A stretch of 49,592 nucleotides of DNA from Prevotella sp. (GTDB taxonomy: Bacteria > Bacteroidota > Bacteroidia > Bacteroidales > Dysgonomonadaceae): positions 1-49,592 of the forward strand of contig JAITVV010000052.1 in assembly GCA_031285625.1 (NCBI GenBank). Direction: 5' to 3'. Numbering within the stretch: the stretch's first letter is position 1; the number at the start of each line of letters is the position of its first letter. Positions 17,072 to 33,212 of this stretch are shown piece by piece. The position numbers were made by a program, and so were the translations under genes. Below the pieces are notes generated by a model. It made no database searches. It was not told where the DNA came from and saw only the letters and a program-made list of their open reading frames with translations.

Positions 17072-17125
17072 TTAAGGTAAATAAAGATTGTTTGGTTATC
17101 GATACAAAGGAAAGACATTTATGAG
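17072..17125 (-). repeat. Partial copy of the dispersed intergenic repeat
   Basis: TTAAGGTAAATAAAGATTGT (17072-17091) matches the outer end of the copy at 29178-29197 in 19 of 20 positions. The next 30 bases (GATACAAAGGAAAGAC) align loosely to the same copy. The palindromic core seen in the other three copies is absent here. Confidence 0.4.
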
Positions 17126-17253: not shown

Positions 17254-18633
17254 TCAATTCATATAATCCCACATTGGTAGTTGAACAGGCTTCTTCCCTA
17301 AGCAGCTCAGAGCCTTAGCATCCAGATACTGCTTATGTACAACCAAGCGAAACATGTATTCACTAAACCATTTATCAGTAAAAGTTAAATATCCTCTATT
17401 ACCGGAACCTGCACCCCAGCTATTTTCAAATTCCCATTTAACAGGCTGATCACTTATATCTGTGTCACAACCAATCAAAGTCATAGCATGGGATGATCCG
17501 CTCTGACGGGTCAATATACGTGCTTTTTTATCCATGGATAGATCAACTCCTAATAATGATTCATAGTCATACATATCAGGATCGAGAATACCCGACTCTC
17601 TATTCAATTGTTTACCAACATCACAGGATGCATACATAGCCTCGTTATTGCGAATAGATGCTAAAGCTGCTTTCTTTATATCCTCATTTGGTAGATTCAG
17701 GTAAACCCAATTTATACCTTCTATTGTATTCTTATAGTTTTGAATTTCATATAGCTGATAGAATTCACGTGTCGGATCGTTCATAATCATAATATAGTTA
17801 TCCGGGGAATAATCGGCAGGAGTTATCTCTTTATAAAATTGCTGAGGTGTATAGTTATTCAGCTCATGTATACTCCCATTCCTGTCTTTATATCTCCATG
17901 TAAATTGTTTTGGTGGTTCTCCAAGACAAAGAGACAAGATACGGTATACATCTTTCAGTATTACAGTTTTCTCATTTCGCAAATCCTGTATTTTCTTACC
18001 TCCTGCTGCCAGTTCACGCAAGTTGTATCCACCGGCACGAAGTTTTTCGTTTACAAGGCCTATCATTTGCCGTGTATTATTTGAGTGTGCTGTTTCAGGC
18101 ATTACTTCCTGAGGAACAACACCATATTTTTCGCCAAGATTATAATATAAGTTCCATACTCCTCCATCACTTACAGGCGATTTAAACAAATATTCTACCG
18201 TTCTGTCATCAATCGGTTCTTTACTGGTTCCGATTATATTTTCGAGAAACAGATTCGCCTTTTCAAAAATATCCCAGAAGTAAAGATAATTATGTGAAAA
18301 ATCAAACTCCCCGAGATTATACTTTTCCATAATAGAAGGACGCAAAACATTCATTGAAGTAAACATCCAGCATCTGCCCGAGCTTTTCTGATCGGTAATG
18401 CCTTTTACGTTAACCCTATACTTAAAGTAATGATCTATTTTCCCCTGCAAACTATTGTTTAATGCGTTAGCCGTTATATTAGCATTGGTAGTCAGAACGT
18501 TTTGAATAGCTTTGGTTGATGCATCCTGTTTAAAACTCGATTGAATTTCCTGAAGATCTTTTTCGGTTATCGTTTGGGCTGTTATACCCGCAGAGAAACA
18601 TAATAAAATTCCCGCAAATAGTACTTTTTTCAT
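17254..18633 (-). CDS. pepC: Aminopeptidase C (bleomycin hydrolase family, C1B), secreted
   Basis: This papain-fold cysteine peptidase family removes N-terminal residues from peptides. Catalytic residues are visible: Cys 88 in SSGRCWMFTS (with Gln 82 forming the oxyanion hole in DQKSSGRC), His in SGSSHAMTLIG, and Asn in EFENSWGAGSG. The length is 459. Unlike cytosolic PepC, it starts with a Sec signal peptide (MKKVLFAGILLCFSAGITAQ), as in other Bacteroidales copies, so it is probably periplasmic. It is a single-gene unit, and its -7 element (TATTTTTG, 18656-18663) is 23 bases upstream. Confidence 0.9.
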   Translation of the reverse strand: MKKVLFAGILLCFSAGITAQTITEKDLQEIQSSFKQDASTKAIQNVLTTNANITANALNNSLQGKIDHYFKYRVNVKGITDQKSSGRCWMFTSMNVLRPSIMEKYNLGEFDFSHNYLYFWDIFEKANLFLENIIGTSKEPIDDRTVEYLFKSPVSDGGVWNLYYNLGEKYGVVPQEVMPETAHSNNTRQMIGLVNEKLRAGGYNLRELAAGGKKIQDLRNEKTVILKDVYRILSLCLGEPPKQFTWRYKDRNGSIHELNNYTPQQFYKEITPADYSPDNYIMIMNDPTREFYQLYEIQNYKNTIEGINWVYLNLPNEDIKKAALASIRNNEAMYASCDVGKQLNRESGILDPDMYDYESLLGVDLSMDKKARILTRQSGSSHAMTLIGCDTDISDQPVKWEFENSWGAGSGNRGYLTFTDKWFSEYMFRLVVHKQYLDAKALSCLGKKPVQLPMWDYMN

Positions 18634-18780: not shown

Positions 18781-18885
18781 AAAGGTGACAAAGGTGACAG
18801 TTTTTATGTAGTTTTTCAATAGTAACTTTTTGTTACCCTGATATCACATAAAGCTATTTATATACAGATAATTATATTTATTTTT
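18781..18885 (+). repeat. Dispersed intergenic repeat, copy A
   Basis: The core begins AAAGGTGACAAAGGTGACAG, then runs through a T-rich spacer to AGTAACTTTTTGTTACC, and ends with ATATCACATAAAGC and a T/A-rich tail. It aligns with copy C (32748-32838, same strand) and with the reverse complement of copy B (29178-29279). Its place is the 495-base gap between aminopeptidase C and the MFS gene, which holds no other recognisable feature besides promoters. Confidence 0.6.
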
Positions 18886-19098
18886 TACAACTTCTTTGTA
18901 ACTAAGAATAATAGATATATTTGTTAAACACAGAAATAATCAGACAATTAACATTTCCCTTGTTGATAAGCTATGAATTTTGTCCATGAAAATTGCAATG
19001 GCTATCAAAACCTGACTAATATAGTATAATATAGAGGTCATACAAAATTATTGCATCATAAGTATATTAATTCTTTATTCTTCTCTAAGACTTTTATT

Positions 19099-19106
19099 TA
19101 TCTTTG
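19099..19106 (+). promoter_or_regulatory. Bacteroidota -7 promoter element for the MFS gene
   Basis: TATCTTTG followed by CG matches TAnnTTTG, 23 bases before the ATG at 19129. Confidence 0.6.
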
Positions 19107-19128
19107 CGTCGTCTTAAAAAACTAACAG

Positions 19129-20346
19129 ATGACATCAGAACAACCCGTTTACTCGAAACAAAGGATACGTTACGCCGTATTATCTCTATTTATAGCACAA
19201 GGCTTGTGCTTTGCTAGTTGGGCTAGCCGCTTACCGGACATTAAGAGAGACTTTAATGTAGAAAGCTATTTACACTATGGATTGTTAATGTTTCTACTTC
19301 CTTTGGGTAAGTTTGTAGCTATTCCTATTGTTGGATTTTTGCTACCCAGAATAGGCAGTAAAAAAACAGTTTTGATAAGTATAATCGGATATGCTTTAGC
19401 TCTGTTTATGGTAAGTATTATACCCGGAATAACAGGACTGGGAATCACTTTATTCCTGTTTGGTATATTCTGGAATATGACAGATATTTCACTAAATACA
19501 CAAGCGATCGAGGTTGAACGGATTTATGGTAAGCCTATTATTGCAACCTTCCATGCCAGCTGGAGTTTAGCAGCTGTTATCGGCGCTGTTATCGGCTATT
19601 CTATGATCAATCTGAATGTAATCACTCTTTATCATTTTTCTATAATAACTGTAGTGGCTATTATAGTGATCTTATTAAATTACAAGTATCTACAAGAACC
19701 AGCCATAGCAACTGAAAAGAAAGAGATAAAAACAGAAACATCCCTGACCGAAAAGAAATCAAAGAAATTTCGTATGCCAGAGAGTTTACTCATTCAGTTG
19801 GGTTTAGTCTGGCTACTTGCACTGATCGTAGAAAATACAATGTTTGAATGGAGTGATGTATATTTTCAGTCTGTAATAAAAGCACCTGAATCGTTGCAAG
19901 TTGGATTTCTTGTATTCATGGTCATGATGTTTACAGGTCGTATGCTCACAAATTTTGCTTATACAATATGGCAAAAGAAGACCGTATTACAGATTGCAGG
20001 AGCACTCATATTCGTTGGGTTTATTACTTCCTCCCTTTTTATCGGTTATTCTGACGATATGCTCATTCAGGTTATTATCACATCTATTGGCTTTATGCTC
20101 ATCGGATTGGGTATTTCCTGCGTAGTGCCTACGCTTTATAGTATTGTTGGTGATAAAGCTAAAACACCTGTAGGTACAGCTTTAACAATAATGTCAAGTA
20201 TTAGCTTTGTCGGACCATTTGTATCACCATTACTTGTTGGGGCGGTTTCAGACTCACACGGGCCTAAATGGGCTTACCTGGTTATGAGTCTGGTAGGATT
20301 GTGTATAATAGCTGCTGTATCTTTAGGTAAGTCATTAAAGAAATAA
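19129..20346 (+). CDS. Major facilitator superfamily transporter
   Basis: The 405-residue product has about 12 hydrophobic segments, with a charged central loop (about 195-220, KKEIKTETSLTEKKSKKFR) separating two six-helix halves, the standard MFS plan. The opening ends of helix 1 contain GLCFASWASRLPDIK and the A-motif-like region is LPRIGSKKTV. The pattern ASWASRLPDI is characteristic of the MFS group annotated as fucose permease-like or 'YdeO-type' exporters. Substrate and direction are unknown. It is convergent with a PfkB kinase across a shared palindromic terminator, so co-regulation is not implied. Confidence 0.85.
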   Translation: MTSEQPVYSKQRIRYAVLSLFIAQGLCFASWASRLPDIKRDFNVESYLHYGLLMFLLPLGKFVAIPIVGFLLPRIGSKKTVLISIIGYALALFMVSIIPGITGLGITLFLFGIFWNMTDISLNTQAIEVERIYGKPIIATFHASWSLAAVIGAVIGYSMINLNVITLYHFSIITVVAIIVILLNYKYLQEPAIATEKKEIKTETSLTEKKSKKFRMPESLLIQLGLVWLLALIVENTMFEWSDVYFQSVIKAPESLQVGFLVFMVMMFTGRMLTNFAYTIWQKKTVLQIAGALIFVGFITSSLFIGYSDDMLIQVIITSIGFMLIGLGISCVVPTLYSIVGDKAKTPVGTALTIMSSISFVGPFVSPLLVGAVSDSHGPKWAYLVMSLVGLCIIAAVSLGKSLKK

Positions 20347-20363
20347 AAGGAACATATCAAAAC

Positions 20364-20397
20364 AAAAAGTAGAAGCATATGCTTCTACTTTTTTATT
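20364..20397. terminator. Bidirectional terminator
   Basis: A near-perfect palindrome from 20364 to 20393 (AAAAAGTAGAAGCATATGC and its complement) is flanked by an A-run and a T-run. It can serve both the MFS gene (stop 20346) and the convergent PfkB gene (stop 20414). Confidence 0.9.
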
Positions 20398-20413
20398 ATA
20401 AACAGTTCTTTCT

Positions 20414-21313
20414 TTATACCTGAGGTATTATTTTTTCTGCATTATTGATTCTTGCCTCCACATCTTCTTTTGTTCCGCTGAATGGCCCTGATCCTTCTAT
20501 CTTTATAGTTGCCATTGCAGCAGCAAACTTACCGGCTTCTTCTATACCTGCTCCTTTTGCTCTCTTATACAAGTATCCTGTAACATAAGTATCTCCACAA
20601 CCTGTAGCATCTACTACCTCTTTTGGCTTATATGCTGGAATTTTATAATATTGCTTCCCATCATAAATAACAGATCCAAGGCTGCCTAAAGTAACAAGAA
20701 CCTCTTTTACTCCCCAATCATATAATTGTTGTGAAGCTTGTTTAATATCTGTCATTCCTGTCAATACCTCCATTTCCAAGTCATTCACTTTGAGAATATG
20801 AACATATTTCAATGTTTCCAGCTTATTCTTCCAATCGATAGGATAAACATTCTGATCACGAACCTCACGCAAATAGCCTTGTGAATCTATAGCAATAAGT
20901 CCTTTCTGGGATAAGTATTCGACCAGTTCTAATGGGAAATCATCTGCAAGCAAAGCTCCTAACAGGAAAATATTAGCTTCGAAATCTTCGAAACCACTTA
21001 CAGTAAACGGGTCAGCTTTTGCCAAAACACGTTGAGTACGGTTGTTTTGATTTTCACCATATATATTTTCAAAATATACCGAATGCCTGCTTGGAATAAC
21101 ATTAACATCTACCCCCTGGGAACGCAAGTCGTCCACAACAGCCATTTCTGACTGAGCCAGTGATGTAACCAATGTATAATCTATATCTTCGAAGTGGCGA
21201 ATAGCGTGTGAAAAATAGAAAGCTGTGCCTCCAGGCATATGTACTGTGCTTTTAGGTGTAACTACCTTGTCTAAGGTAATATGCCCTATGCAACAAAGAT
21301 CATGTTTATGCAT
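20414..21313 (-). CDS. PfkB-family carbohydrate/nucleoside kinase
   Basis: The ribokinase-like fold is shown by the C-terminal signature VDATGCGDTYVTGYLYKRA (family pattern DTxGAGD; here the second Gly-Ala-Gly-Asp is GCGD, with the catalytic Asp), the N-terminal glycine pair MPGGTAFYFSHA, and the middle block TLGSLGSVIYDG. The length of 299 is normal. The substrate is not clear: the N-terminus CCIGHITLDK is more like the inositol/sugar kinases. No sugar-use genes are nearby. A -7 element (TATTTTTG on the minus strand) is at 21333-21340. Confidence 0.85.
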   Translation of the reverse strand: MHKHDLCCIGHITLDKVVTPKSTVHMPGGTAFYFSHAIRHFEDIDYTLVTSLAQSEMAVVDDLRSQGVDVNVIPSRHSVYFENIYGENQNNRTQRVLAKADPFTVSGFEDFEANIFLLGALLADDFPLELVEYLSQKGLIAIDSQGYLREVRDQNVYPIDWKNKLETLKYVHILKVNDLEMEVLTGMTDIKQASQQLYDWGVKEVLVTLGSLGSVIYDGKQYYKIPAYKPKEVVDATGCGDTYVTGYLYKRAKGAGIEEAGKFAAAMATIKIEGSGPFSGTKEDVEARINNAEKIIPQV

Positions 21314-21332
21314 TATTAATTTTTTTGAAATG

Positions 21333-21340
21333 CAAAAATA
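21333..21340 (-). promoter_or_regulatory. Bacteroidota -7 promoter element for the PfkB kinase
   Basis: TATTTTTG on the minus strand, 20 bases before the start codon at 21313, matches TAnnTTTG. Confidence 0.45.
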
Positions 21341-21428
21341 GTAAATTATTACATCTTCTGATTATATCTCTCTCCTAAAAAAGAAAAAGGTTTCACCTTT
21401 TAGATAAAACCTTTTAAATACGTTATAA

Positions 21429-23852
21429 TTACTTTTTATTCTTTACATATTTTTCCAACCATTGATCTTGTTCCCATAGCAGATGAAATACAGATTCTTT
21501 AGCAGCATATCCATGACTTTCTTTTGGTAGGATAACTAAACGTGCCGGAGCTCCAAATCCTTTCAGAGCATTAAAGTATCGCTCACTCTGCATAGTATAA
21601 GTTCCCGAGTTATTATCATCCCCACCATGAACCAGTAGCATAGGTGTTTTCATTTTGTCGGCATGCATAAATGGCGACATAGTATTATAAACTTCAGGTG
21701 CCTCCCAATAATTCCTTTCTTCGGCCTGAAAACCAAAAGGAGTCAGTGTTCTGTTATAGGCGCCACTACGTGCAATACCTGCGGCAAATAAATCGGAGTG
21801 AGTCAGGAGATTTGCCGTCATAAATGCTCCATATGAATGTCCTCCTACTGCTACACGTGATTTATCTATGTACCCCATCGAATCTACCGCATCTATTGCT
21901 GCTTTTGCATTTGCAATCAGCTGCTCTAAGAATGTATCATTAGGCTCAGCATTACCCTCCCCCACTATGGGAAAAGATGCATCGTCCAATATCGCATATC
22001 CCCTTGTTACCCAATATATAGGCGAGCCATAATATGGATATATAAACTCATTCGGATTGGTAGTATTCTGCCCTGCGCTACTTTTATCTTTATATTCTGT
22101 CGGATATGCCCACATCACCATAGGTAGCTTTTCTTTTTTCTGCATATCATAGTTTGCAGGCAAATAAAGGGTACCTGTTAGTTCCACCCCATCGGGACGT
22201 CTATATTTTATCACTTCCTTATAAATATCGGCTATGCTTCTGAATGGGTTATCAAAATGAGTAATAGCTATCGGTGCAACCCTCTTTATTGTATTCAAAA
22301 TATAATAATTCGGATACTCTGTAAGTGATTGTATCCAGACTAAATATTCTCCACGCTTAGCATCAATGATAGATATTATATCAAGCTTTTTATCAGTATA
22401 ACTCGATTGATAGAGACGTTTGGTTAGCTTTGTATTAAGGTCTATTTCATCCACAAAAGGGAACTGCCCTTTCTCCGAATATCCCTGACCGATCAGATAT
22501 GCTTTAGTACCTTCCAGATTGAGAGTGTATTCTCCAAATTGGTTTTTCTTTGTATCAAAACTTCCGGGATTATTATATACATCCTGATAGCTCCTATCGA
22601 ATAAAAGTGTTGGATTATGCGTTAAGTCATCAGATGGATTAAATATGTATGTTTTCTCATTGCGTGTGTTCCACCAGTAATCCTTTAGAATTGCAATATT
22701 ATCATTTCCCCATATAATTGTTTGAAAACGATTAATTGTTTTAGCCAAGCTTCTAGAATTACCATTAAATGGACTATCTAGTTCATATACTTCATCTCTG
22801 AACTCTGCCTCTATTTCCGGATCACCTTTGTCCAAAGCTTCTACCCAATATAATGTTGCGGGTTTGTCTGCTCTCCATGATATATTACGTTTTCCCGTAT
22901 AAGTTGCCATAAAACCTTTTGGCATAACCTCTTGTAATGGTTTATCATTAAATTTACTAATCAACTCTCCATTCTGGTCATAGATTACGGTTTCTACCGG
23001 AAACCTATATAATGGAACTATATAAGAGAAAGGTTTATGCAAGGTACTTATTAACACATAATTACCATCAGGAGAGAAAGTTTCTCCCGTATACATATTC
23101 TTATCTTTCCATAATGTTTTATTTCCAGATAAATTAACTTTATACAACTCTGATGTAACCAAAGATTCAAAATTAGCCTCATCTGTTGCATTTTTCAATA
23201 AATCCTGATAAGTCCGGTTTTGAGCTTTTTCTCCAACTTCGCTAACCGAAATTGTAGGGCCATTAGGTATACTCTCCTTTGTATCTATCAAATCTGATCT
23301 GTCATCCGGTAACACCCGTACCAGCAGTTCATTACTATCCTTAAACCAAGTATATGGATTTCCTAAATTTGCATTTAAGTTAGCTTCTGTTAACCTTTCT
23401 GCTTTTAATGATAATAAATCTATATACCATAGCTCAACCCCTGTAGCTGTAGTATTCGTAAAAGCAACCTTATTTTCATCAGGCGACCAAGTCACATAGC
23501 TTATTTTTGCATTTTGTGGCAATCCTTCGATTTGTATAGGTTCAGTATTAGCAATATCCTTGAATTTGAGATTGTTTATATATGTTATCGTACTTGATAT
23601 ATTTGTTTTAGGATTAATCCTAAGACCTCCTAACCTCATCTCCTTTTCAGATAAATCTGCCAGAGTTTTATATGTATTTCTATACTGAAATAGCATCTTA
23701 GTACGTTTACTATTCATACTAAGAGTAGGTGCCCGATCAAAATCAGCAAGCTCAAGAATCTCTGCCGGAGGTTTTTGATACATCAAATCTTCCTGTGCAA
23801 ATACACTAACAGAAAGGAATAAAACCAAAATTAAAAATAGTTGCTTTTTCAT
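21429..23852 (-). CDS. S9D-type glutamyl endopeptidase-like serine peptidase, secreted
   Basis: The 807-residue protein has a Sec signal peptide (about 1-19), a long beta-propeller-like part, and a C-terminal alpha/beta-hydrolase catalytic domain. The catalytic Ser is in VGGHSYGAFMTANLL, the Asp is in LVHGGDDNNSG and the His is in LPKESHGYAAKES. The segments GIARSGAYNRTLTPFGFQ and TMQSERYFNALKG are close to what I remember of the plant chloroplast glutamyl endopeptidase (S9D), which separates it from acylaminoacyl peptidase (S9C). Its role is likely periplasmic peptide degradation. It is a single gene on the minus strand. Confidence 0.88.
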   Translation of the reverse strand: MKKQLFLILVLFLSVSVFAQEDLMYQKPPAEILELADFDRAPTLSMNSKRTKMLFQYRNTYKTLADLSEKEMRLGGLRINPKTNISSTITYINNLKFKDIANTEPIQIEGLPQNAKISYVTWSPDENKVAFTNTTATGVELWYIDLLSLKAERLTEANLNANLGNPYTWFKDSNELLVRVLPDDRSDLIDTKESIPNGPTISVSEVGEKAQNRTYQDLLKNATDEANFESLVTSELYKVNLSGNKTLWKDKNMYTGETFSPDGNYVLISTLHKPFSYIVPLYRFPVETVIYDQNGELISKFNDKPLQEVMPKGFMATYTGKRNISWRADKPATLYWVEALDKGDPEIEAEFRDEVYELDSPFNGNSRSLAKTINRFQTIIWGNDNIAILKDYWWNTRNEKTYIFNPSDDLTHNPTLLFDRSYQDVYNNPGSFDTKKNQFGEYTLNLEGTKAYLIGQGYSEKGQFPFVDEIDLNTKLTKRLYQSSYTDKKLDIISIIDAKRGEYLVWIQSLTEYPNYYILNTIKRVAPIAITHFDNPFRSIADIYKEVIKYRRPDGVELTGTLYLPANYDMQKKEKLPMVMWAYPTEYKDKSSAGQNTTNPNEFIYPYYGSPIYWVTRGYAILDDASFPIVGEGNAEPNDTFLEQLIANAKAAIDAVDSMGYIDKSRVAVGGHSYGAFMTANLLTHSDLFAAGIARSGAYNRTLTPFGFQAEERNYWEAPEVYNTMSPFMHADKMKTPMLLVHGGDDNNSGTYTMQSERYFNALKGFGAPARLVILPKESHGYAAKESVFHLLWEQDQWLEKYVKNKK

Positions 23853-24090
23853 TATGATTATTTTGTGGGTTCCAGATTTTTAAATCAAATGCTAAAATAC
23901 AAATTTTATAAATACCTATACTCGTTTATTGTCAATTTGATAGATAAATAGGAAAAACAGTCTTTCATCAGGGCTTTATCAAATAATCAATGATAAATAT
24001 TAATTTCCAATTATTTTTGCTGTTATTCATACTTTTTTTATTTCTTTGTTAATTGATCGGATAATAATATCCAATCACACAATAATAGAG

Positions 24091-24519
24091 ATGAAAAGAT
24101 ATTTATACATAACATTAGGCTTAATATCATTAAGCCTGGGTTTGTTGGGAATAGTGACTCCCGGACTTCCCACTACACCTTTTATTCTTCTTACAGGTGT
24201 ATTGTTTGCTAAAGGATCGCCAAGACTTCACCAAAAATTATTAGACAATAAGCTGACCGGACGCTATATACGCCAGGTAAATAATGGTTTCAGCCTCAAA
24301 GGGATGGCTATATCCATAGGTATGATGTGGTGTATGATCTTCTTTACAGCTTTTGTTGTATTCGTGAACAATGAAACAATGCGATTTGTTATGCTAGGAT
24401 TAGGAGTTGTAGGTACAATAGCCCAACTCATAGTTCTCCGAAAAAAGAAAAAGAAAGCAAAAATATCAGTATTAGAAAGCGAAAATCAAGATGGGACAAG
24501 GAATTTGAAGGCTTCTTGA
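24091..24519 (+). CDS. YbaN/DUF454-family small membrane protein
   Basis: The 142-residue protein fits the DUF454 (YbaN) family of unknown function. The family signature LGLLGIVTPGLPTTPFIL (about residues 15-32) is present, followed by AKGSPRLHQKLLDNKLTGR. The hydrophobic segments (about 5-22, 68-88, 92-110) predict an inner-membrane protein. The C-terminus is Lys-rich (RKKKKKAK). The start at 24091 is preferred because GAG spaced before this ATG and the family N-terminus fit. An in-frame TTG at 24046 would add 15 residues that are not membrane-like. Confidence 0.82.
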   Translation: MKRYLYITLGLISLSLGLLGIVTPGLPTTPFILLTGVLFAKGSPRLHQKLLDNKLTGRYIRQVNNGFSLKGMAISIGMMWCMIFFTAFVVFVNNETMRFVMLGLGVVGTIAQLIVLRKKKKKAKISVLESENQDGTRNLKAS

Positions 24520-24638
24520 ATTTGATAAAAAATGTATATTTATGTTATAAAAAATAGAAGTTATATTTTGTTATCTTGCTATAATTCTCTTCCTTTGTGT
24601 AAGAAGGGGACATTTAAAACAGAAACAACCTAATAAAA

Positions 24639-24956
24639 ATGGAAAACAATAACAACGAACAGAATAATCAAATACAAATTGAATTACCGGAAGATGTAGC
24701 TCAGGGAATATACTCTAATTTAGCTATAATAGCCCACTCCTCATCCGAATTTGTTATCGATTTTGTCCGTATATTACCTGGTATGCCCAAAGCAAAAGTA
24801 CAATCACGTATAGTTATCACGCCCGAGCATGCCAAACGTTTGTTGTATGCATTGAATGACAATGTAAAAAGATTTGAATCCCAGAATGGACCCATTACCG
24901 TTGATAATCCGGCAGGTTTCTTACCTCCTATCAACGGCCCTATAGGAGAAGCTTGA
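24639..24956 (+). CDS. DUF3467-family protein
   Basis: This is a small soluble protein (105 residues) of a family of unknown function found in Bacteroidota and relatives. The family core is visible as QGIYSNLAIIAHSSSEFVID, FVRILPGMPKAKVQSRIV and the end TPEHAKRLLYALNDNVKRFE. The tail is Pro/Gly-rich. It is located 33 bases before alanine dehydrogenase and may be co-transcribed with it and cydAB, because no promoter element or terminator is seen between. Confidence 0.85.
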   Translation: MENNNNEQNNQIQIELPEDVAQGIYSNLAIIAHSSSEFVIDFVRILPGMPKAKVQSRIVITPEHAKRLLYALNDNVKRFESQNGPITVDNPAGFLPPINGPIGEA

Positions 24957-24989
24957 TCTAATATTATTCAATAATAAAACGAAGAATAT

Positions 24990-26096
24990 ATGAAAGTTGG
25001 AATTCCTAAAGAGCTAAAGGCTTTTGAAAATCGTGTTGCTGTAACACCAGCAGGCGTACATGAATTAGTGGCATGTGGACATGAAGTCTATGTGGAGACT
25101 GGTGCAGGAATTGGTAGTGGCTTTTCAGATTCGGATTACACGGCTACCGGAGCCAAAATACTATCAACAATAGAAGAGACATACGCTATTGCCGATATGA
25201 TAGTAAAAGTAAAGGAACCTATTCAACAAGAATATAATCTCATTCGCGAAAATCAAATAATATTTACTTATTTTCATTTTGCTTCCAGTCTGGAACTCAC
25301 AGAGGCAATGATAAAGAGTAAGGCAATCTGTATAGCATATGAAACGGTAGAGCTACCAGATCATTCCTTACCTTTACTTGTTCCTATGAGTGAGGTAGCC
25401 GGACGTATGGCAATACAAGAGGGAGCACGCTTTCTGGAAAAACCCCATTTAGGAAAAGGCGTTCTTTTAGGAGGAGTACCAGGAGTAAAACCAGCACATG
25501 TTATTGTTATTGGAGGTGGTATTGTTGGAGCTCAATCAGCTAAGATTGCTGCCGGTATGGGAGCAAGGGTTACTATTTTAGATAAAAGCTTACCCCGACT
25601 CCGTTACTTAAACGATATAATGCCGGCCAATATAACTACAAGATATTCAGATACACATACGATCAAAGAACTTATTAAAGATGCAGATCTCATCGTAGGA
25701 GCTGTATTGATTGCCGGTGACAAAGCCCCTCAGGTAATAACCAGAGGAATGCTAAAAGAAATGCAGCCGGGAACAGTATTAGTAGATGTGGCTATAGATC
25801 AGGGAGGATGTTTCGAAACATCCAGGCCTACAACACATATCGATCCGGTATTTGTGATAGATGATGTTGTACACTATTGTGTAGCCAATATTCCGGGTGC
25901 AGTACCGATGACTTCTACCCTGGCCCTTACGAATGCAACATTGCCTTATGCTTTGAGTTTAGCCAATATGGGATGGGAAGAGGCATGTAAAGAATATAAA
26001 GATCTGCGTAAAGGATTGAATATTATTAAAGGAGATATAGTATATAAAGCAGTCGCTCATACTTTTGGACTACAATATAAGGAATATCAATTTTAA
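24990..26096 (+). CDS. ald: Alanine dehydrogenase
   Basis: The enzyme oxidatively deaminates L-alanine to pyruvate with NAD+. The N-terminus MKVGIPKELKAFENRVAVTP and the block GIGSGFSDSDYTATGAKI are typical of the Ald/PNT family. Lys in MIVKVKEP binds substrate carboxylate and the catalytic His lies in YFHFASSLELT. The Rossmann NAD block is VIVIGGGIVGAQSAKIAAGMG. The length of 368 residues is standard. Lack of PntB-like domain partners argues against transhydrogenase. It sits 50 bases before cydA with no terminator. Confidence 0.93.
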   Translation: MKVGIPKELKAFENRVAVTPAGVHELVACGHEVYVETGAGIGSGFSDSDYTATGAKILSTIEETYAIADMIVKVKEPIQQEYNLIRENQIIFTYFHFASSLELTEAMIKSKAICIAYETVELPDHSLPLLVPMSEVAGRMAIQEGARFLEKPHLGKGVLLGGVPGVKPAHVIVIGGGIVGAQSAKIAAGMGARVTILDKSLPRLRYLNDIMPANITTRYSDTHTIKELIKDADLIVGAVLIAGDKAPQVITRGMLKEMQPGTVLVDVAIDQGGCFETSRPTTHIDPVFVIDDVVHYCVANIPGAVPMTSTLALTNATLPYALSLANMGWEEACKEYKDLRKGLNIIKGDIVYKAVAHTFGLQYKEYQF

Positions 26097-26145
26097 AGAA
26101 TCAAATTAGAATCCTCATATATTTACTAATATAAAATTATTTTTT

Positions 26146-27699
26146 ATGGAACTACTAAATGCATCGTTAATAGACTGGTCAAGAGCCCAGTTTGCTATGA
26201 CAGCAATGTATCACTGGTTGTTTGTGCCCCTGACCCTGGGTCTGGGGATCATCATGGCAATCATGGAGACAATGTATGTACGTACTGGTGATGAACAGTG
26301 GAAAAAAACTGCAAAATTCTGGATGAATATTTTCGGTATCAATTTCGCTATTGGGATTGCGACAGGACTTATCATGGAATTTCAGTTTGGGACTAACTGG
26401 TCAAACTATAGCTGGTTTGTAGGTGATATCTTCGGAGCGCCGCTAGCTATCGAAGCCACAGTTGCTTTCTTTCTGGAAGCTACATTTATCTCCATTATGT
26501 TTTTTGGATGGAAGCGCGTTGGTAAAAAAATGCACTTGGCATCTACATGGTTAACAATAGCCGGAGCTACACTTTCTGCTCTTTGGATTCTGGTAGCCAA
26601 TGCATGGATGCAGTACCCTGTAGGTATGGAATTCAATCCTGACACAACCCGTAACGAAATGATGGATTTTTGGGCAGTAGCATTGTCACCTGTTGCCATC
26701 AATAAATTCTTTCATACCGTTCTTTCAGGTTGGGTATTAGGAGCATTGTTTGTAGTCGGAATCGCAGCATGGTACATGATTAAGAAAAGAAATGCACAGT
26801 TCGCTCAACAAAGTATGAAAGTAGCCGTTGCCTTCGGACTTATATCTTCGCTTCTTATTCTTTGGACTGGTCATGGTTCAGCTCAGCAAGTTGCTGAAAA
26901 ACAGCCAATGAAATTAGCCGTAATGGAAGGACTATATGAAGGTGGAGAAGGCGTTGGCCTCATAGCCTTTGCAATTCCTAATCCGTCAAAAGAATCATAC
27001 AAAGACAATACTGATCCTTATCTTTTGAATATTAGCATTCCTAAAGGATTATCATGGTTAAGTTTCGGAGATATGGAAGCATATGTACCGGGAATAAAAG
27101 ATATAATAGACGGAGGTTATAGAGAGCCTGATGGTTCTACTGCCCTATCGTTTACTGAAAAGCAAAGCAGAGGAAAAGCAGCCATACAAGCTTTGGCTGA
27201 CTATAAGAAGGCTAAAAAAGATGGAAACGAAACTGCTGCAACAGAATATAAAGAAAAAATAAAAGCTAATTATGCTTATTTCGGTTATGGATATTTGGAT
27301 ACACCAGAACAATTGATACCAAATATACCAATGGTATATTGGTCATTCCATATCATGGTTTATCTGGGAGGATACTTTATTGCATTATTCCTTCTCTTAG
27401 GATTCCTTGTATACCGTAAGAAAGATCTGGAAAATATGAAATGGCTTCTTTGGGTTTGTGTTTGGACAATTCCATTGGCATATATTGCAGGACAAGCCGG
27501 TTGGGTACTGGCTGAAGTTGGACGCCAACCATGGGCTATTCAGGATTTATTACCGCTTCAGGCAGCGATATCATCATTATCGACCCAGTCTGTAATAATT
27601 ACTTTCTGCCTATTCCTTGCACTATTTACAGCTTTACTTATTGCAGAGATTCGCATTATGCTGAATCAGATAAAGAAAGGTCCGGAGGAATCTCACTAA
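26146..27699 (+). CDS. cydA: Cytochrome bd ubiquinol/menaquinol oxidase subunit I
   Basis: CydA carries the haems of cytochrome bd, a terminal oxidase that reduces O2 with quinol electrons. The block AMYHWLFVPLTLGLG contains the haem-ligand His (His 23, equivalent to His 19 in E. coli). NKFFHTVLSGWVLG holds the second ligand His, and YWSFHIMVYLG holds the ligand-Met region. The quinol-binding Q-loop lies around residues 250-335 and is of the form found in Bacteroidota. The length is 517. The partner subunit follows after 33 bases. A host using bd oxidase under low oxygen fits an intestinal or anaerobic Bacteroidales. Confidence 0.97.
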   Translation: MELLNASLIDWSRAQFAMTAMYHWLFVPLTLGLGIIMAIMETMYVRTGDEQWKKTAKFWMNIFGINFAIGIATGLIMEFQFGTNWSNYSWFVGDIFGAPLAIEATVAFFLEATFISIMFFGWKRVGKKMHLASTWLTIAGATLSALWILVANAWMQYPVGMEFNPDTTRNEMMDFWAVALSPVAINKFFHTVLSGWVLGALFVVGIAAWYMIKKRNAQFAQQSMKVAVAFGLISSLLILWTGHGSAQQVAEKQPMKLAVMEGLYEGGEGVGLIAFAIPNPSKESYKDNTDPYLLNISIPKGLSWLSFGDMEAYVPGIKDIIDGGYREPDGSTALSFTEKQSRGKAAIQALADYKKAKKDGNETAATEYKEKIKANYAYFGYGYLDTPEQLIPNIPMVYWSFHIMVYLGGYFIALFLLLGFLVYRKKDLENMKWLLWVCVWTIPLAYIAGQAGWVLAEVGRQPWAIQDLLPLQAAISSLSTQSVIITFCLFLALFTALLIAEIRIMLNQIKKGPEESH

Positions 27700-27732
27700 T
27701 ACATGATTTTTTAACTAAAAAAAGATATAACT

Positions 27733-28878
27733 ATGGATTATTCATTTTTACAACATTATTGGTGGTTCCTTATATGCCTTATCGGAGGAATTTTTGCATT
27801 TCTTCTGTTTGTGCAAGGAGGACAATCAATGCTCTTTTCATTAGCAAAAGATGAAAAGGAACGAATGATATTGGTTAATACCCTGGGGCGCAAATGGGAA
27901 TATACATTTACTACACTGGTAACTTTTGGTGGAGCTCTCTTCGCTTCATTCCCATTATTTTACTCTACCAGTTTTGGCGGTGCATATTGGGTTTGGATGG
28001 CTATTCTATTCTGCTTTGTAATACAAGCAGTATCTTATGAATACCAGTCAAAACCAGGAAACTTATTCGGACGTAACACATACAGATGGTTCTTATTTAC
28101 TAATGGATTATTAGGAACATTCCTGGTAGGTGCTGCACTGGCTACATTCTTCACAGGTTCCGACTTCACTGTAAACAAGGGAAATATGACAGATGTATTA
28201 AGCCCTGTTATCAGCCGTTGGGGAACTGAATGGCATGGACTGGAAGCACTGGCAGAACCTCGTAACTGGTTACTTGGACTAACTGTATTCTTCCTTGCCC
28301 GCACACTTGCATGTCTATATTTTATTAATCGCCTTCAAGACGAAACATTGATAAAACGTTCCCGTAAATTCTTACTCTACAACTGTATACCATTCGTAGT
28401 GTTCTTTTTGGCATTTGTTATATGGATCAGCTTATCTCAAGGGTTTGCGGTAAACCCTGATACAAAAGAAGTATTCTTGCAACCATATAAATATTTCTTA
28501 AATCTGGTAGAAATGCCAATTGTAGGGATTGTTTTTGTTGTAGGCGTATTACTGGTATTGTTTGGTATCGGAAAAACGCTATTAAGTGAATCATTTAGCA
28601 AAGGTATCTGGTTTACAGGTATAGGTACTGTACTTACAGTATGTATGCTACTATTGATTACCGGCTTTAATAATACAGCATATTATCCATCAAGTACAGA
28701 TCTGCAAAGCTCATTGACTATTGAAAATTCATCCTCGAGTGAATTTACCCTTACTGTTATGAGTGTTGTATCACTTCTTGTTCCTGTTGTATTAGCATAT
28801 ATTGCTTATGCATGGGGCGTATTGGAAAGAAAACGCATGGACGTGAAAGATTTGAAAGACGATGGTCATGTATATTAA
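27733..28878 (+). CDS. cydB: Cytochrome bd oxidase subunit II
   Basis: CydB is the second membrane subunit that with CydA forms the bd oxidase. The 381-residue translation is highly hydrophobic with about nine membrane segments. The opening LQHYWWFLICLIGGIFAFLL and the block NRWRY-like YRWFLFTNGLLGTFLVGAA are in keeping with the family. It is co-transcribed with cydA and ends at a strong terminator, so ald-cydA-cydB may be one unit. No cydX-like short ORF with an obvious membrane segment is seen directly after it, and the cydDC exporter is not in the window. Confidence 0.95.
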   Translation: MDYSFLQHYWWFLICLIGGIFAFLLFVQGGQSMLFSLAKDEKERMILVNTLGRKWEYTFTTLVTFGGALFASFPLFYSTSFGGAYWVWMAILFCFVIQAVSYEYQSKPGNLFGRNTYRWFLFTNGLLGTFLVGAALATFFTGSDFTVNKGNMTDVLSPVISRWGTEWHGLEALAEPRNWLLGLTVFFLARTLACLYFINRLQDETLIKRSRKFLLYNCIPFVVFFLAFVIWISLSQGFAVNPDTKEVFLQPYKYFLNLVEMPIVGIVFVVGVLLVLFGIGKTLLSESFSKGIWFTGIGTVLTVCMLLLITGFNNTAYYPSSTDLQSSLTIENSSSSEFTLTVMSVVSLLVPVVLAYIAYAWGVLERKRMDVKDLKDDGHVY

Positions 28879-28901
28879 TTGATATATGATAACTTAGATA
28901 G

Positions 28902-28930
28902 AAGAGGTACCAATTAGTACCTCTTTTTTA
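28902..28930 (+). terminator. Intrinsic terminator of cydAB
   Basis: The stem AAGAGGTAC / GTACCTCTT (28902-28910 and 28917-28925, loop CAATTA) is followed by a T-run. Confidence 0.9.
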
Positions 28931-29019
28931 TTTGAGAGTGGTGAATATTTTGAAATAAATGATTCCTATATTTATTTTTATTGTAGATTTACTTACTCTA
29001 ATACATTAAAGCTCAATCT

Positions 29020-29161
29020 ATGGAAACTAGCTCTCACTTCATTGCTGATAGTAATAGTTTTAACCACGCTAATTACTATCTCTTGTAAAAAGATCGCTAT
29101 TGCCAAACTGAAACCTGAGAGTGAAGATATGATAGCGAGAGTAACTAAGGAATTGAATTAA
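29020..29161 (+). pseudogene. Small lipoprotein gene disrupted near its start (possible)
   Basis: From about 29022 one frame reads KLALTSLLIVIVLTTLITIS then CKKIAIAKLKPE and stops at 29159-29161: a very good lipoprotein signal peptide with lipobox-like ISC and a short charged tail. That frame has no ATG, but an ATG at 29020 is one base out of phase (ATGG where ATG directly before AAA would give MKLALTSLL). A single extra G would explain this. In its own frame the ATG gives only a 22-residue peptide. This is a plausible frameshifted small gene, or chance. Confidence 0.35.
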
Positions 29162-29177
29162 ATATATCGTCTTATTA

Positions 29178-29279
29178 TTAAGGTAAATAAAAATTGTCTT
29201 ATATAAAAAGTTCTTTGGTATGATATAAAGAAAAAGTAACACTTAAAAACGACAAAAAGCTGTCACTTTTGTTACTTTT
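29178..29279 (-). repeat. Dispersed intergenic repeat, copy B (inverted orientation)
   Basis: Read on the minus strand the core is AAAAGTAACAAAAGTGACAG, then a T-rich spacer, then GTGTTACTTTTTC and TATATCATACC. It ends (plus positions 29178-29197) in TTAAGGTAAATAAAAATTGT, also found at 17072. It sits in the 490-base gap between cydB and ferredoxin, which otherwise holds only terminators and a possible broken small gene. Confidence 0.6.
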
Positions 29280-29322
29280 CAAGGTATGTTGTTACGTGTA
29301 GGTGTTCTAATCTAAAAATAAA

Positions 29323-29347
29323 AAGGAAGCAAATATTTTGCTTCCTT
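29323..29347 (-). terminator. Terminator of the ferredoxin gene
   Basis: AAGGAAGCAAA / TTTGCTTCCTT (29323-29333 and 29337-29347) is followed on the minus strand by TTTTTATTTTTAGA, 22 bases past the ferredoxin stop. Confidence 0.8.
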
Positions 29348-29369
29348 ATATATTTTATAGTCCTGACAA

Positions 29370-29537
29370 TTATGCAGGATGGATTGCTTCTGTTGGGCAA
29401 GCATCAGCACAAGTACCACAATCAGTACATGTATCCGGATCAATTTTATAGATATCTCCTTCTGAAATAGCGTTTACTGGACATTCATCTATGCAAGTAC
29501 CACAAGCAATACAGTCTTCGTTAATTACGTAAGCCAT
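29370..29537 (-). CDS. Small 2[4Fe-4S] ferredoxin
   Basis: Translation of the minus strand gives 55 residues with two classic cluster motifs, CIACGTCIDECP (Cys 9, 12, 15, 19) and CTDCGTCADACP (Cys 38, 41, 44, 48). This is a clostridial-type ferredoxin that carries low-potential electrons, for example to or from pyruvate:ferredoxin oxidoreductase. The gene is easily missed because it is short. It has a good terminator, and a minus-strand TATATTTG at 29577-29584, 40 bases upstream. No redox partner gene is adjacent. Confidence 0.93.
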   Translation of the reverse strand: MAYVINEDCIACGTCIDECPVNAISEGDIYKIDPDTCTDCGTCADACPTEAIHPA

Positions 29538-29576
29538 GATTTTTTCGTTTTAATATTATTACTAACTTTGATACGG

Positions 29577-29584
29577 CAAATATA
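29577..29584 (-). promoter_or_regulatory. Bacteroidota -7 promoter element for ferredoxin
   Basis: TATATTTG on the minus strand, 40 bases before the start codon at 29537, matches TAnnTTTG. Confidence 0.55.
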
Positions 29585-29795
29585 ACGAGTTTTTTCTTTA
29601 TCCAAAAACGGATACTGTTAGATATTATAAATATTAAGATTGTTTATATCTATAAATATAATTATACACCTAATATACAGCATATTAAATTTAACTATTT
29701 AGAATTTAGTCTCTCGTTATTTTTACCCTTTCTAAGTAATAGAACATAACAATAACTAACAATAAATTACGTTATTAGAAATAAAAACAGCTATT

Positions 29796-30506
29796 TTGAA
29801 ACCAAATAAAATATTCACGTTACTACTGCTTATCAGTGTAATTTGTGTAAACTCACAGGCACAAGTACGAAAAGCTCTGAATCAACCCTTTGCTGATCAG
29901 AAAATGTACCATCTGGGATTCTCTATTGGATTTCACACGCAGGATATGATTCTGTCACATACAGGATTTGTTGGTGATAATGGAGAAGCTTGGTTTTCCG
30001 AAATACCATCCTACTCTGTTGGATTCAGTGTTGGAATGATCGGAGACCGGTATCTGAACCAATACATGAATCTGCGATTGGCCCCTACCCTGCATTTTGG
30101 TGAAAGAAGATTCGTATTCAAAGAACAAACATCAGGAGAAGAGGTCGATTCTGCATTGAAAAGTAACTATATATCGATCCCTCTATACTTGAAATTTAGT
30201 GCGGACAGGATGGGTAATTTCAGACCGTATTTTCTGGCCGGAGGATATGCAGCAGTTAATATCGGCAGTAAAAAGGATGATCTCCTACGTTTTAAACAAA
30301 TGGATTACGGCTTAGAATTTGGAGTCGGCTGCAATATCTATCTGCCGCTATTTAAGCTGTGCCCTGAGTTGAAGTTTTCATTTGGCTTGACTGACGTTGT
30401 AAACAAAAACAGATCGGATCTTTCCGATCAAGATATGATAAAGTACACTCAGGCAATATCTTCAGGAAAAACGAGAATGATCTCATTAGTCTTTAACTTT
30501 GAGTAG
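29796..30506 (+). CDS. porT: PorT-family outer membrane protein (type IX secretion)
   Basis: PorT is a beta-barrel protein needed for type IX secretion in Bacteroidota. The 236-residue protein has a Sec signal (to about residue 22, NSQAQ), and its order of blocks fits: FADQKMYHLGFSIGFHTQD, PSYSVGFSVGMIGDRYLN, LRLAPTLHFGERRF, NYISIPLYLKFSADR and YFLAGGYAAVNIGSKK. It ends in Phe-Glu in MISLVFNFE, a plausible last beta-strand. The start codon is TTG at 29796: the 30 bases before it hold no in-frame ATG and the signal peptide begins there. The other secretion genes are not nearby. The call rests on motif memory; a related OmpW-like barrel is the alternative. Confidence 0.75.
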   Translation: MKPNKIFTLLLLISVICVNSQAQVRKALNQPFADQKMYHLGFSIGFHTQDMILSHTGFVGDNGEAWFSEIPSYSVGFSVGMIGDRYLNQYMNLRLAPTLHFGERRFVFKEQTSGEEVDSALKSNYISIPLYLKFSADRMGNFRPYFLAGGYAAVNIGSKKDDLLRFKQMDYGLEFGVGCNIYLPLFKLCPELKFSFGLTDVVNKNRSDLSDQDMIKYTQAISSGKTRMISLVFNFE

Positions 30507-30507
30507 A

Positions 30508-30933
30508 ATGAATCTCAGATATAAGGATAACTGTGAAAATATACCTTGGGACAAAGTACCCCTCCTGTTGGAAAAAGTCAATATGAGTTTCTCTGATCCT
30601 GAGACACACAAGGAATCATTTGAAGCCAGCTATTCGGTCATATTTGTTTTCGACAATGAAGAATTGATAGGCTTTGGGCGTATTTTATCAGATGGAGTAA
30701 GACAATCGGCCATATACGATGTTGCCGTTGAACCATCATATCAAGGACATAAAATTGGACAAAATATAATAGAGCGATTAATAAAAACTACACCAAACTG
30801 CAATTTTATCTTATATGCTTCTCCTGGTAAGGAAGGCTTTTATAAAAAGTTGAACTTTAGAAAAATGAAGACGGGTATGGCTTTATTTTCCAATACTCAA
30901 CGAATGATAGATAGCGGCTTTATAGAGGAATGA
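30508..30933 (+). CDS. GNAT-family N-acetyltransferase
   Basis: The 141-residue product has the acetyl-CoA-binding motif A: YDVAVEPSYQGHKIGQNIIE (about residues 71-90), with Q-x-x-G-x-G/A represented by QGHKIG. The preceding strand is LIGFGRILSDG, and a C-terminal strand with YKKLNFRKMKTGMALF fits the family. The ATG at 30508 is preferred over an upstream TTG (30499) because the PorT stop codon is at 30504-30506. It overlaps the next gene by four bases (ATGA). The acceptor substrate is unknown. Confidence 0.85.
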   Translation: MNLRYKDNCENIPWDKVPLLLEKVNMSFSDPETHKESFEASYSVIFVFDNEELIGFGRILSDGVRQSAIYDVAVEPSYQGHKIGQNIIERLIKTTPNCNFILYASPGKEGFYKKLNFRKMKTGMALFSNTQRMIDSGFIEE

Positions 30934-31244
30934 ATACTACTGAGAAAAAAACGATTGGCAAGATGATACATTTGTATTGTAATGCCAAACATGGTACCAG
31001 TCACGCATTATGTACATCATGTGCAGAACTGAACAAATATGCTCAAAAGAGACTATCAAAGTGTATATATGGTGAAGATAAACCAACATGTGAGAAATGT
31101 CCTATACATTGCTATAGTTCCGATATGAGAGAAAAGATCAAAGATGTGATGCGTTACTCCGGTCCAAGAATGCTCTTCCATAGTCCCCGTATGGCCATCA
31201 CGCACTTAATTAAAGGAATGAAAACGCCCAAAAGGATCAGTTAG
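30930..31244 (+). CDS. Nitrous oxide-stimulated promoter family protein (Cys-rich)
   Basis: The 104-residue protein fits the family named after a nitrous oxide-stimulated promoter, which is of unknown function. The family blocks are visible: KMIHLYCNAKHG, LCTSCAELNKYA, KCIYGEDKPTCEKCPIHCY (a likely metal site with several Cys) and MRYSGPRMLFHSPRM. It overlaps the GNAT gene and probably shares its transcript with porT. Confidence 0.8.
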   Translation: MNTTEKKTIGKMIHLYCNAKHGTSHALCTSCAELNKYAQKRLSKCIYGEDKPTCEKCPIHCYSSDMREKIKDVMRYSGPRMLFHSPRMAITHLIKGMKTPKRIS

Positions 31245-31313
31245 CTCTGTCTCTATCCAATAAACTTTTCAATCTCACAGATTGTTTAATAACTAAATAT
31301 TAAACAAAAAAGT

Positions 31314-31487
31314 ATGAGCAGGCGAAGCGAACTAGAAAAGGAAATTGAAATAGCAAAGAAACGAATAGATGATGCTCCAAAGGACACTCCAAAAGAAATA
31401 ATGGAGGCTTGGATAAAAGAACTTGACAGCCTATCCATCGAACTTAATGACCTGTATGACGACGACGAAAATGAATTTCCGAGCTAA
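31314..31487 (+). CDS. Small charged hypothetical protein
   Basis: A 57-residue frame with an ATG at 31314 runs to TAA at 31485-31487. It opens MSRRSELEKEIEIAKKRI, is helical and charged throughout, and ends with a strongly acidic tail (LYDDDENEFPS). Composition is coding-like, with only seven bases between its stop and the stop of convergent aroC. I recognise no family. It could pair with a partner as an adaptor; this is speculation. Confidence 0.5.
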   Translation: MSRRSELEKEIEIAKKRIDDAPKDTPKEIMEAWIKELDSLSIELNDLYDDDENEFPS

Positions 31488-31494
31488 GATATAT

Positions 31495-32571
31495 TTATAA
31501 AAAAGCCCGGTTCATTTTACTCATCAGATAATAATCCAGAATTGTCATGGCAGCCATAGCCTCTACAATAGGTACAGCGCGTGGTAATACACAGGCATCA
31601 TGACGACCTCTGGCCTTCAGATCGGTATACTCCCCTTCCTTATTAATTGTATCCTGATGCATAAGGATAGTAGCTACGGGCTTGAATGCTACACGGAAAT
31701 AGATATCATGTCCGTTCGAAATACCACCCTGAATTCCACCGGAATGGTTAGTACGGGTGCTCACCTTTCCATTTTCATTATAAAAGACATCATTTACTTC
31801 CGATCCACGATGGCTAACATCGAATCCATCGCCATATTCAAAACCTTTCACTGCATTTATTCCTAACATGGCATCTCCTAATGCTGCATGCAATTTATTG
31901 AATACCGGCTCACCCAATCCAACTGGCGTACCTTTAATGACACAAGTAACAACTCCACCAATCGTATCGCCTTTAGACTTTACTTCTTCGATAAATTCGA
32001 TCATTTCAGCAGCTTTCTCCATATCTGGACAGCGCACTGGAGTAGATTCAATCAATGAAAGATCATATTCTGTATATTGTTTATCCAGCTTTATATGTCC
32101 TACCTGTGAAGTATAAGCTGTGATTTCTATATTCAGCTGAATAAGTGCAAGTTTCGCTAATGCTCCTCCTACACACCGTGCTATTGTCTCCCGCGCGGAA
32201 GAACGGCCTCCTCCCCTATGATCACGTATTCCATACTTTTGTGAATAAGTATAATCGGCATGAGAAGGACGGTAAATATCTTTCAGATTATCATAATCCG
32301 ACGAATGTTGATTATTGTTGCGAATAATAAAACCAATAGGAACCCCTGTCGTTTTACCATCATATATTCCCGAAAGAAATTCGACCTCATCGGCTTCCTT
32401 ACGGGGTGTTGTTATTTTAGACTGCCCCGGGCGGCGGCGGTTAAGTTCATTCTGAATAAAATCCATATCAACGGTAATTCCTGCCGGACATCCGTCGATT
32501 ACTCCACCTATTGCAGCACCGTGTGACTCCCCATAAGAGGTAAGCCTAAATATATTTCCAAATGTATTCAT
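31495..32571 (-). CDS. aroC: Chorismate synthase
   Basis: AroC makes chorismate from EPSP, the last shared step to aromatic amino acids, using reduced FMN. The N-terminus [20 protein letters not shown], the block RRRPGQ, the FMN-binding block [20 protein letters not shown] and the late block [13 protein letters not shown] are all in place. The length from the ATG at 32571 is 358 residues; a TTG start one codon earlier is unnecessary. It lies alone on the minus strand. TAATTTTG at 32598-32605 (minus) is the likely -7 element. Confidence 0.97.
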
Positions 32572-32597
32572 CAAAAATTATATAGATTAGCGAGTTA

Positions 32598-32605
32598 CAA
32601 AATTA
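32598..32605 (-). promoter_or_regulatory. Bacteroidota -7 promoter element for aroC
   Basis: TAATTTTG on the minus strand, 27 bases before the ATG at 32571, matches TAnnTTTG. Confidence 0.5.
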
Positions 32606-32747
32606 CATCAAATTATTCAATTATCAGACCAAAAGACAGGAGGAGAACATTATTCCTTTCTAAAGATTTAGGATAAATAGCTTATATACATGAAAAAAGT
32701 AACACATATATATTTTTATAAATATCAGGTAAAAAGCATATTACCAT

Positions 32748-32838
32748 AAAAAAGTGACAAAAGTAACAGTTATCAGCTTATTTTCAATGTTACTTTATTG
32801 TACTATAGCAAGCCTTATATCATAAGATAATTTTATCC
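32748..32838 (+). repeat. Dispersed intergenic repeat, copy C
   Basis: The core AAAAGTGACAAAAGTAACAG starts near 32750, followed by a spacer and TCAATGTTACTTTATTG, then CCTTATATCATAAGATAATT. It aligns with copy A (18781) on the same strand and with the reverse complement of copy B. A further partial arm (AAAAAAGTAACAC) lies at 32693. The 290-base gap between aroC and the lipoprotein gene holds nothing else apart from the aroC promoter. Confidence 0.6.
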
Positions 32839-32861: not shown

Positions 32862-33212
32862 TTAGTTTTCTTTATTCTCATCCATTTTAAGGACTTTGAA
32901 GTTACTGTCGAAATAACAGTTTATGGTATCATTGATATTGAATATCCTGTAGCTGTTAGCATAGGCCCATGTCCCCTGTATATAGATTTTACATAGATAT
33001 GTTTCATCCGGATTATCACGTTTATCCTTAGGTATTTTCTCATAGGAAACGGGTTCCATATATTCAATCTTAGTTATAGTATTATTATCTATATCCCTAT
33101 ATTTAATATGCTGTTTAGCCGCTTCTCCCATTTTATCCAGATTATATTGTGTACTTAAACTGCAGGAGAACAACCCAAAAGTAATGAATACCAATAAAAT
33201 ATATTTCTTCAT
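32862..33212 (-). CDS. Hypothetical lipoprotein
   Basis: The 116-residue product has a lipoprotein signal peptide (ILLVFITFGLFSCS, lipobox LFSC, Cys about 17). The mature part has no motif that I recognise; it is rich in Lys, Asp and Tyr with short beta-like stretches (CKIYIQGTWAYANSY). It stands alone. TAATTTTG on the minus strand at 33254-33261 is a good promoter element 42 bases upstream. It is probably a cell-envelope protein specific to relatives. Confidence 0.7.
   Translation of the reverse strand: MKKYILLVFITFGLFSCSLSTQYNLDKMGEAAKQHIKYRDIDNNTITKIEYMEPVSYEKIPKDKRDNPDETYLCKIYIQGTWAYANSYRIFNINDTINCYFDSNFKVLKMDENKEN

Follow-up and report, generated by a model that had tools for sequence, protein, structure and literature searches.

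Results

Three copies of an intergenic repeat in the window

The window, that is, the whole stretch of 49,592 nucleotides analysed here, is contig C19 of genome G000, an assembly of 4.84 Mb in 96 contigs with a sampled GC content of 37%. It carries three copies of a non-coding repeat of approximately 80–115 bp, composed of three short blocks denoted T, I and D (Table 1). Copy 1 is situated between divergent genes, with its D side towards a C1-like peptidase gene (17254–18633, minus strand) and its T side towards an MFS gene (19129–20346, plus strand). Copy 2 occupies a convergent context, its D side pointing towards the 3' end of a ferredoxin gene (29370–29537, minus strand), and copy 3 is located upstream of the chorismate synthase gene aroC (31495–32574, minus strand); the stretch 32862–33212 gave no Pfam match.

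Table 1. Repeat copies and their blocks in the window
Feature	Coordinates	Strand	Blocks	Evidence
Copy 1	18781..18871	-	T 18864-18871 (TTATCTGT); I-like 18822-18829; D 18781-18799	profile search
Copy 2	29194..29279	+	T 29194-29201 (TTGTCTTA); I 29233-29240; D 29261-29279	profile search
Copy 3	32750..32830	-	T 32823-32830 (TTATCTTA); I 32789-32796; D 32750-32768	profile search
Proposed partial copy, unsupported as family member	17072..17125	.		no profile match at E 10

A profile built from 59 copies, all outside the window, matched at 18883–18777, 29182–29280 and 32821–32747 with E values from 2.6e-14 to 4.5e-13. Two other matches only were obtained in the window, at E 3.6 and 3.9, and the block-shuffled window gave no match to the same profile up to E 10. 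A search for the core with up to three mismatches returned 3 matches versus 0.07 expected from shuffles. The original prediction of three full copies at roughly these positions, all of them between genes, was thereby borne out. The partial copy that it also proposed was missed by the profile and contains, by eye, neither the direct nor the inverted 9-mer. The core that the full copies were said to share is exact in copy 3, but reads AAAAGGTGACAAAGGTGACAG in copy 1 and GAAAAGTAACAAAAGTGACAG in copy 2.

Read in gene-sense order, a copy of the window type comprises T (TTATCTnATATAA), a spacer, I, approximately 19 bp and D, usually followed by the gene start. In the aligned copies T has the extended consensus TTRTCTnATATAA; I is an inverted 9-mer, AARGTNACA, and D consists of direct 9-mers (TGTNACYTTTGTNACYTTTT) in two 9-bp units. 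The tail previously described as ATATCATA does coincide with a real third block, loosely read, since it corresponds to TTATCTnATATAA on the opposite strand.

The T pattern was found within 150 bp before the first D unit in 52/61 cases in G000, 13/18 in G002, 26/46 in G019 and 20/27 in the metagenome bin Hs463_bin56. The I pattern preceded D in 61/63 cases in G000 (6 after shuffling) and in 15/16 on contig C3 of G002, but in only 19/74 in G019 (6 after shuffling), and the distance from I to D was 17–20 bp in 55 of 61 G000 copies. A further 20 G002 regions, on contigs C1 and C2, contained T in 15 cases and I in 19, and most of 15 copies from G001 appeared by eye to be without both. Because T and I vary in presence between genomes, we regard D as the constant part of the repeat and the T-I-D arrangement as the G000/G002 type. 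D itself usually has two units in the genus, three in some G000 copies and runs of three to five in G322; a one-unit variant was seen by eye before aroC in G008.

Centre bases varied from genome to genome, being A/A in 40/45 cases in G001 and, among the matches listed, T/T in 36/39 in G003 and A/C in 13/29 in G004. A single centre base per species holds for G001 and fails in G002, where it differs between contigs: the first-unit centre base is T in 4 of 26 exact D sequences on C1, the rest being C, whereas on C3 all 16 of 16 scored over its first 400 kb have T (Fisher p 3e-8 against C1), with T in 37/88 genome-wide. Such contig dependence could mean local copying or regional subfamilies.

Two further repeated motifs accompany the modules. 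A GC-richer repeat (approximately CATCCTGAG/CATGCTGA...GAAGGAT/GAAGCAT...C), which looks REP-like, occurs in or beside D-ended modules at L225, L231 and L234 in G019 and at L025 and L028 in G000. Tandem units of TGTCAGGTT(T), a second tandem-unit motif similar in length to the D units, precede D in several modules at the G001 loci L282–L308 and also in G019.

Distribution of the repeat family

The genome scan that had been fixed in advance as the refuting test yielded 191 matches to the core AAAGTRACAAAAGTRACAG (up to two mismatches) in G000 versus 2 for a reversed control, and the family came through it. With at most one mismatch, the core was present in 19 of 25 genomes of the genus. Exact matches to TGTNACYTTTGTNACYTTT occurred in 24 of 101 family genomes, namely 20/25 of genus g1, 4/6 of genus g2 and 0/70 of the others. 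Totals, in which a three-unit D is counted twice, reached 491 (G014), 298 (G006) and 258 (G019), with at most one control match per genome, and many congeners had few or none. The near-complete genomes G017 and G325 gave 0 exact matches. When 295 genomes from across the order were sampled, a stricter two-arm pattern was detected in 3 (the host, one congener and one g2 genome).

The named contigs bearing the motif belong to D. alginatilytica and four other Dysgonomonas sp., and it is from these that the genus name Dysgonomonas was assigned to g1. The remaining 21-mer matches fell in Hs463_bin56, a Prevotella-labelled metagenome bin that presumably corresponds to G014, and in one Patescibacteria contig. 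A phage origin was considered and rejected: 12 viral contigs match a D pattern, none with both T and I beside it. No description of a Dysgonomonas intergenic repeat was found in the literature searched; five papers there contain one of five core strings, but none of them, judged by title, deals with bacterial repeats. The repeat family is thus real and large, with no earlier description found in that literature.

Orientation with respect to genes

To define the genomic context, simple ORF-based gene calls were used and each intergenic region was counted once, in a sample comprising 850 kb of G000, 400 kb each of G002 and G019, 15 G001 loci and 15 G322 loci. Within tandem gaps, 59 regions carried the repeat in the sense of the genes and 4 against them (p 1.4e-13); 24 regions were divergent, 8 convergent and 9 excluded. 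The insertable bases of G000 and G002 are 28,613 in tandem, 23,703 in divergent and 3,651 in convergent gaps (55,967 in total). The mix of gap types is therefore ordinary (convergent in 8/95 regions versus 3,651/55,967 bases), and only the direction is non-random. The earlier statement that copies lie in both orientations is true by strand, but the direction follows the genes.

The distance from D to the tandem gene ranged from 9 to 625 nt, and a conserved promoter-like sequence before aroC sits, by eye, on the gene side of the element; the repeat therefore has no fixed geometry to the promoter. The downstream genes, whose names come mostly from reading, are functionally mixed, so that a specific regulon is not suggested; neighbours supported by Pfam include chorismate synthase, C1-like peptidase, ferredoxin, MFS, RodA/FtsW, Y-family polymerase and amino-acid kinase genes.

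Several other explanations were tried and rejected. The Bacteroidetes promoter motif, TAnnTTTG, turned up inside the element just 9 times among 111 sequences, each time singly and at scattered positions, and CTTTGA lay 17–19 nt past the T start in 8 of the 111, which is not a fixed promoter feature. An appearance of one-strand placement at 1.23–2.98 Mb of G019, suggestive of replication polarity, was refuted by many minus-strand copies there. GTNAC as a restriction target was not avoided, with observed/expected ratios of 0.92 to 1.16.

Constraint on the T, I and D blocks

Orthologous sites were compared between two species, G002 and G020, which share 94.3% identity across 361 kb. In 12 pairs, from which three with broken or doubtful alignment were left out, mismatches amounted to 1/75 in T, 3/104 in I and 3/215 in D, versus 93/819 in the rest of the element and 66/456 in the 3' flank; T was located in 7 of the 12, any T of the other five being counted under the rest. 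Gaps numbered 9 in T, 4 in I, 1 in D, 10 in the rest and 0 in the 3' flank. Taken together, the blocks differ at 7/394 positions versus 93/819 (Fisher p 5e-10) and are therefore constrained. Since sites were chosen by D in one species, its mismatch rate is somewhat lowered, whereas T and I are not favoured by this choice. All 15 aligned pairs gave 4/284 mismatches in D versus 73/561 in the spacer. The spacers drift freely between conserved short blocks.

Gain, retention and arrays

G000 copies at unrelated loci share 79–86% identity over approximately 113 bp, covering the whole element, and the shared stretch runs from approximately 20 bp before T to near the D end. Upstream of aroC, D is absent in 22/22 relatives (up to two mismatches, 450 bp), 3 of which show a T-like pattern farther upstream. 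At rodA, G000 has two copies and 7/7 readable relatives have none, an eighth relative giving no match; at these empty sites the gap sequence of the closest relatives has diverged too far to reveal a target-site duplication. The convergent C81 site carries an element common to G000, G007 and G002 and absent in G019 and G011, with G001, G003 and G009 unscorable either way. The copy 2 site has a recognisable element in one of seven relatives (G007), in which D is, by eye, interrupted.

Retention was assessed between G002 and G020. Both flanks of 15 of 19 G002 matches were found in G020, and 14 of those 15 were matched there, two of the 15 being loose matches that are doubtful as elements. The exception has kept T-like and I-like sequence and lost one 9-bp unit. 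Length differences at six G002/G020 sites, considered as possible cargo, look more like other insertions, gene losses and, in one case, a false match, and this reading was dropped. The near-identical pair L318/L325 in G002 was likewise discarded as a recent single-element copy, since it is part of an 894-bp gene duplication. That duplication is 93.6% identical, and each of its two copies ends approximately four bases past D, which places a breakpoint of the duplication at the element end.

In Hs463_bin56, on contigs selected by an exact D match, 36 sampled arrays contained up to 8 D units each. The order in which their modules reappear varies; type 0 was seen 22 times, type 1 was seen 19 times and type 2 was seen 11 times. 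Type 2 is the opening piece of an array and was cut at a set length of 140 bp, which means that its leading position is partly by construction. Among 32 G019 arrays, 15 had two units and 10 had three. Slippage and recombination between repeats would explain the arrays.

Discussion

Nature of the repeat

On the sequence evidence, we judge the chances to be about even that the family is a non-autonomous, REP/BOX-like copying repeat whose copies are kept as oriented, putative protein-binding DNA sites. Short repeats would have spread by copying within the Dysgonomonas group, and copies would afterwards have been kept in place between genes as oriented sites. A predicted sequence-specific DNA-binding protein of the clade may contact the GTNACYTTT units of I and D, the spacing of which is near-fixed, and perhaps T as well. 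This putative binder could be the enzyme responsible for copying the element, or else a protein of the host whose binding affects the neighbouring gene. A role at the site itself is favoured because orthologous sites are constrained. Asymmetry of the site would account for the orientation bias, one direction alone being tolerated or useful between co-directional genes. Most likely, selection is part of what keeps the element in place. The original prediction missed the gene-directed orientation, the third block, the block constraint and the spread over two genera.

A broader form of this proposal, which we advance tentatively and hold to be possible more than probable, is that the copies are clade-wide, oriented cis-acting DNA sites, self-dispersed between genes and then kept by selection, with one putative GTNACYTTT-reading protein acting beside at least 100 functionally unrelated genes per genome.

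Somewhat unlikely, yet a serious contender, is a purely selfish non-autonomous element (MITE/REP/BOX-like) devoid of host function, in which T and D would be the ends seen by a putative enzyme and the direction bias would arise from transcription-coupled insertion or from loss of badly oriented copies. Such an element fits the lineage-specific copies, their similarity along the whole element, the wide differences in copy number among congeners (0 to 491 exact matches), arrays built of shared modules, the mixed neighbouring genes and a start codon geometry that is not fixed. The slow change of T, I and D (7/394 versus 93/819) would nevertheless be unexpected of inert copies, and no copying enzyme was found, the RAYT family being absent from the host.

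The sense orientation could also suggest an RNA element, that is, a leader or terminator in which I pairs with D as a hairpin ahead of a U-rich stretch. On both strands the copies do fold better than shuffles (mean z -1.9 sense and -2.0 antisense), with at least five I-D pairs in 33 of 62, as an inverted repeat would do regardless. Centre bases pair in 34 of 61 copies against a shuffle mean of 36.0, and the other three position pairs likewise stay at the shuffle mean; this test is weak because few positions vary. The inverted arms noted in the original prediction thus exist, but their variable bases show no covariation, which argues against a selected RNA stem, and the suggested multicopy RNA with compensatory arms finds no support in the 61 copies. 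Moreover, the I centre T is unmatched in 12/61 copies, ordinary stem and U-tract terminators adjoin the element at several sites (by eye), the rodA element sits between two genes closely spaced in relatives, and no Rfam family matched the window at the gathering threshold. An RNA element is consequently improbable, and a DNA site is the better fit for a GTNAC motif whose centre is free and whose spacing is near-fixed.

In a further reading, a recombinase would move modules by site-specific recombination at D, and the arrays would be integron-like cassettes lacking genes. D-delimited modules do occur in differing orders in the 36 Hs463_bin56 arrays, and one G002 gene duplication ends four bases after D. 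This reading is nevertheless very improbable, since such arrays can also arise by slippage or by crossing over at short direct repeats and most G000 copies are single.

Bacterial interspersed repeats are often read as parasites tolerated where they are least harmful. The Dysgonomonas repeat instead points with the genes and keeps its short blocks at orthologous sites amid drift. If the proposed binding protein exists, a copying repeat would distribute a working site over the genome, an idea that can be tested directly on the copies gained and lost among sequenced species.

Comparison with known repeat systems

The designation of the repeat as MITE-like or REP-like in the original prediction was broadly right, in that this is a dispersed intergenic family with whole-element likeness, gain between species and modular arrays; it fell short in that the host genome lacks RAYT genes and the copies showed no terminal inverted repeat. 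REP sequences are described as palindromes of 20–40 bp that bear a GTAG or CGTC tag and lie for the most part downstream of genes (PMC3733652). The Dysgonomonas repeat resembles them in its high copy number, intergenic location and inverted repeat, but has direct 9-mers and, by eye in the aligned copies, no GTAG/CGTC tag. RAYT (Y1 transposase, PF01797) is present in 10 of 25 genomes of the genus and gave 0 matches in the host, G002, G003 and G006, all of them repeat-rich, which rules out a RAYT link.

Porphyromonas gingivalis belongs to the same order, Bacteroidales. Its BrickBuilt MITE combines 23-nt units with terminal inverted repeats and is reported in 19 copies for strain ATCC 33277 (PMC4596501). 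Both are intergenic, with a leader and a tail on either side of direct repeats, and both have a varying unit number, which in BrickBuilt differs between strains. The Dysgonomonas repeat differs in its 9-bp units and in a copy number that reaches into the hundreds, and no terminal inverted repeat was seen in it. In the aligned copies, the exact ends of which are not fixed, the T end and the D end do not read as inverted copies of each other, and the inverted pair I/D is internal to the element.

Correia repeat enclosed elements are described as short and dispersed, with an inverted repeat and a conserved core, and as able to carry promoters and bind the host protein IHF beside genes. Compared with them by description, the Dysgonomonas repeat is distinguished by short blocks split by free spacers.

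BOX of Streptococcus pneumoniae is a dispersed family of short repeats between genes, made of boxA, boxB and boxC modules and varying in how many internal units they contain; its modules can affect neighbouring genes in an orientation-dependent manner, and it is reported to be over-represented between convergent genes (PMC3049150). The Dysgonomonas repeat is likened to BOX by its architecture: it too is modular, dispersed and intergenic with a variable unit number. It differs from BOX in being convergent in 8/95 regions, approximately the share of such space. Gene-sense direction and short-block constraint were measured for the Dysgonomonas repeat only, not for BOX. The Dysgonomonas repeat is of the same broad kind as the BOX, REP and MITE-like repeats and differs from them in the features tested.
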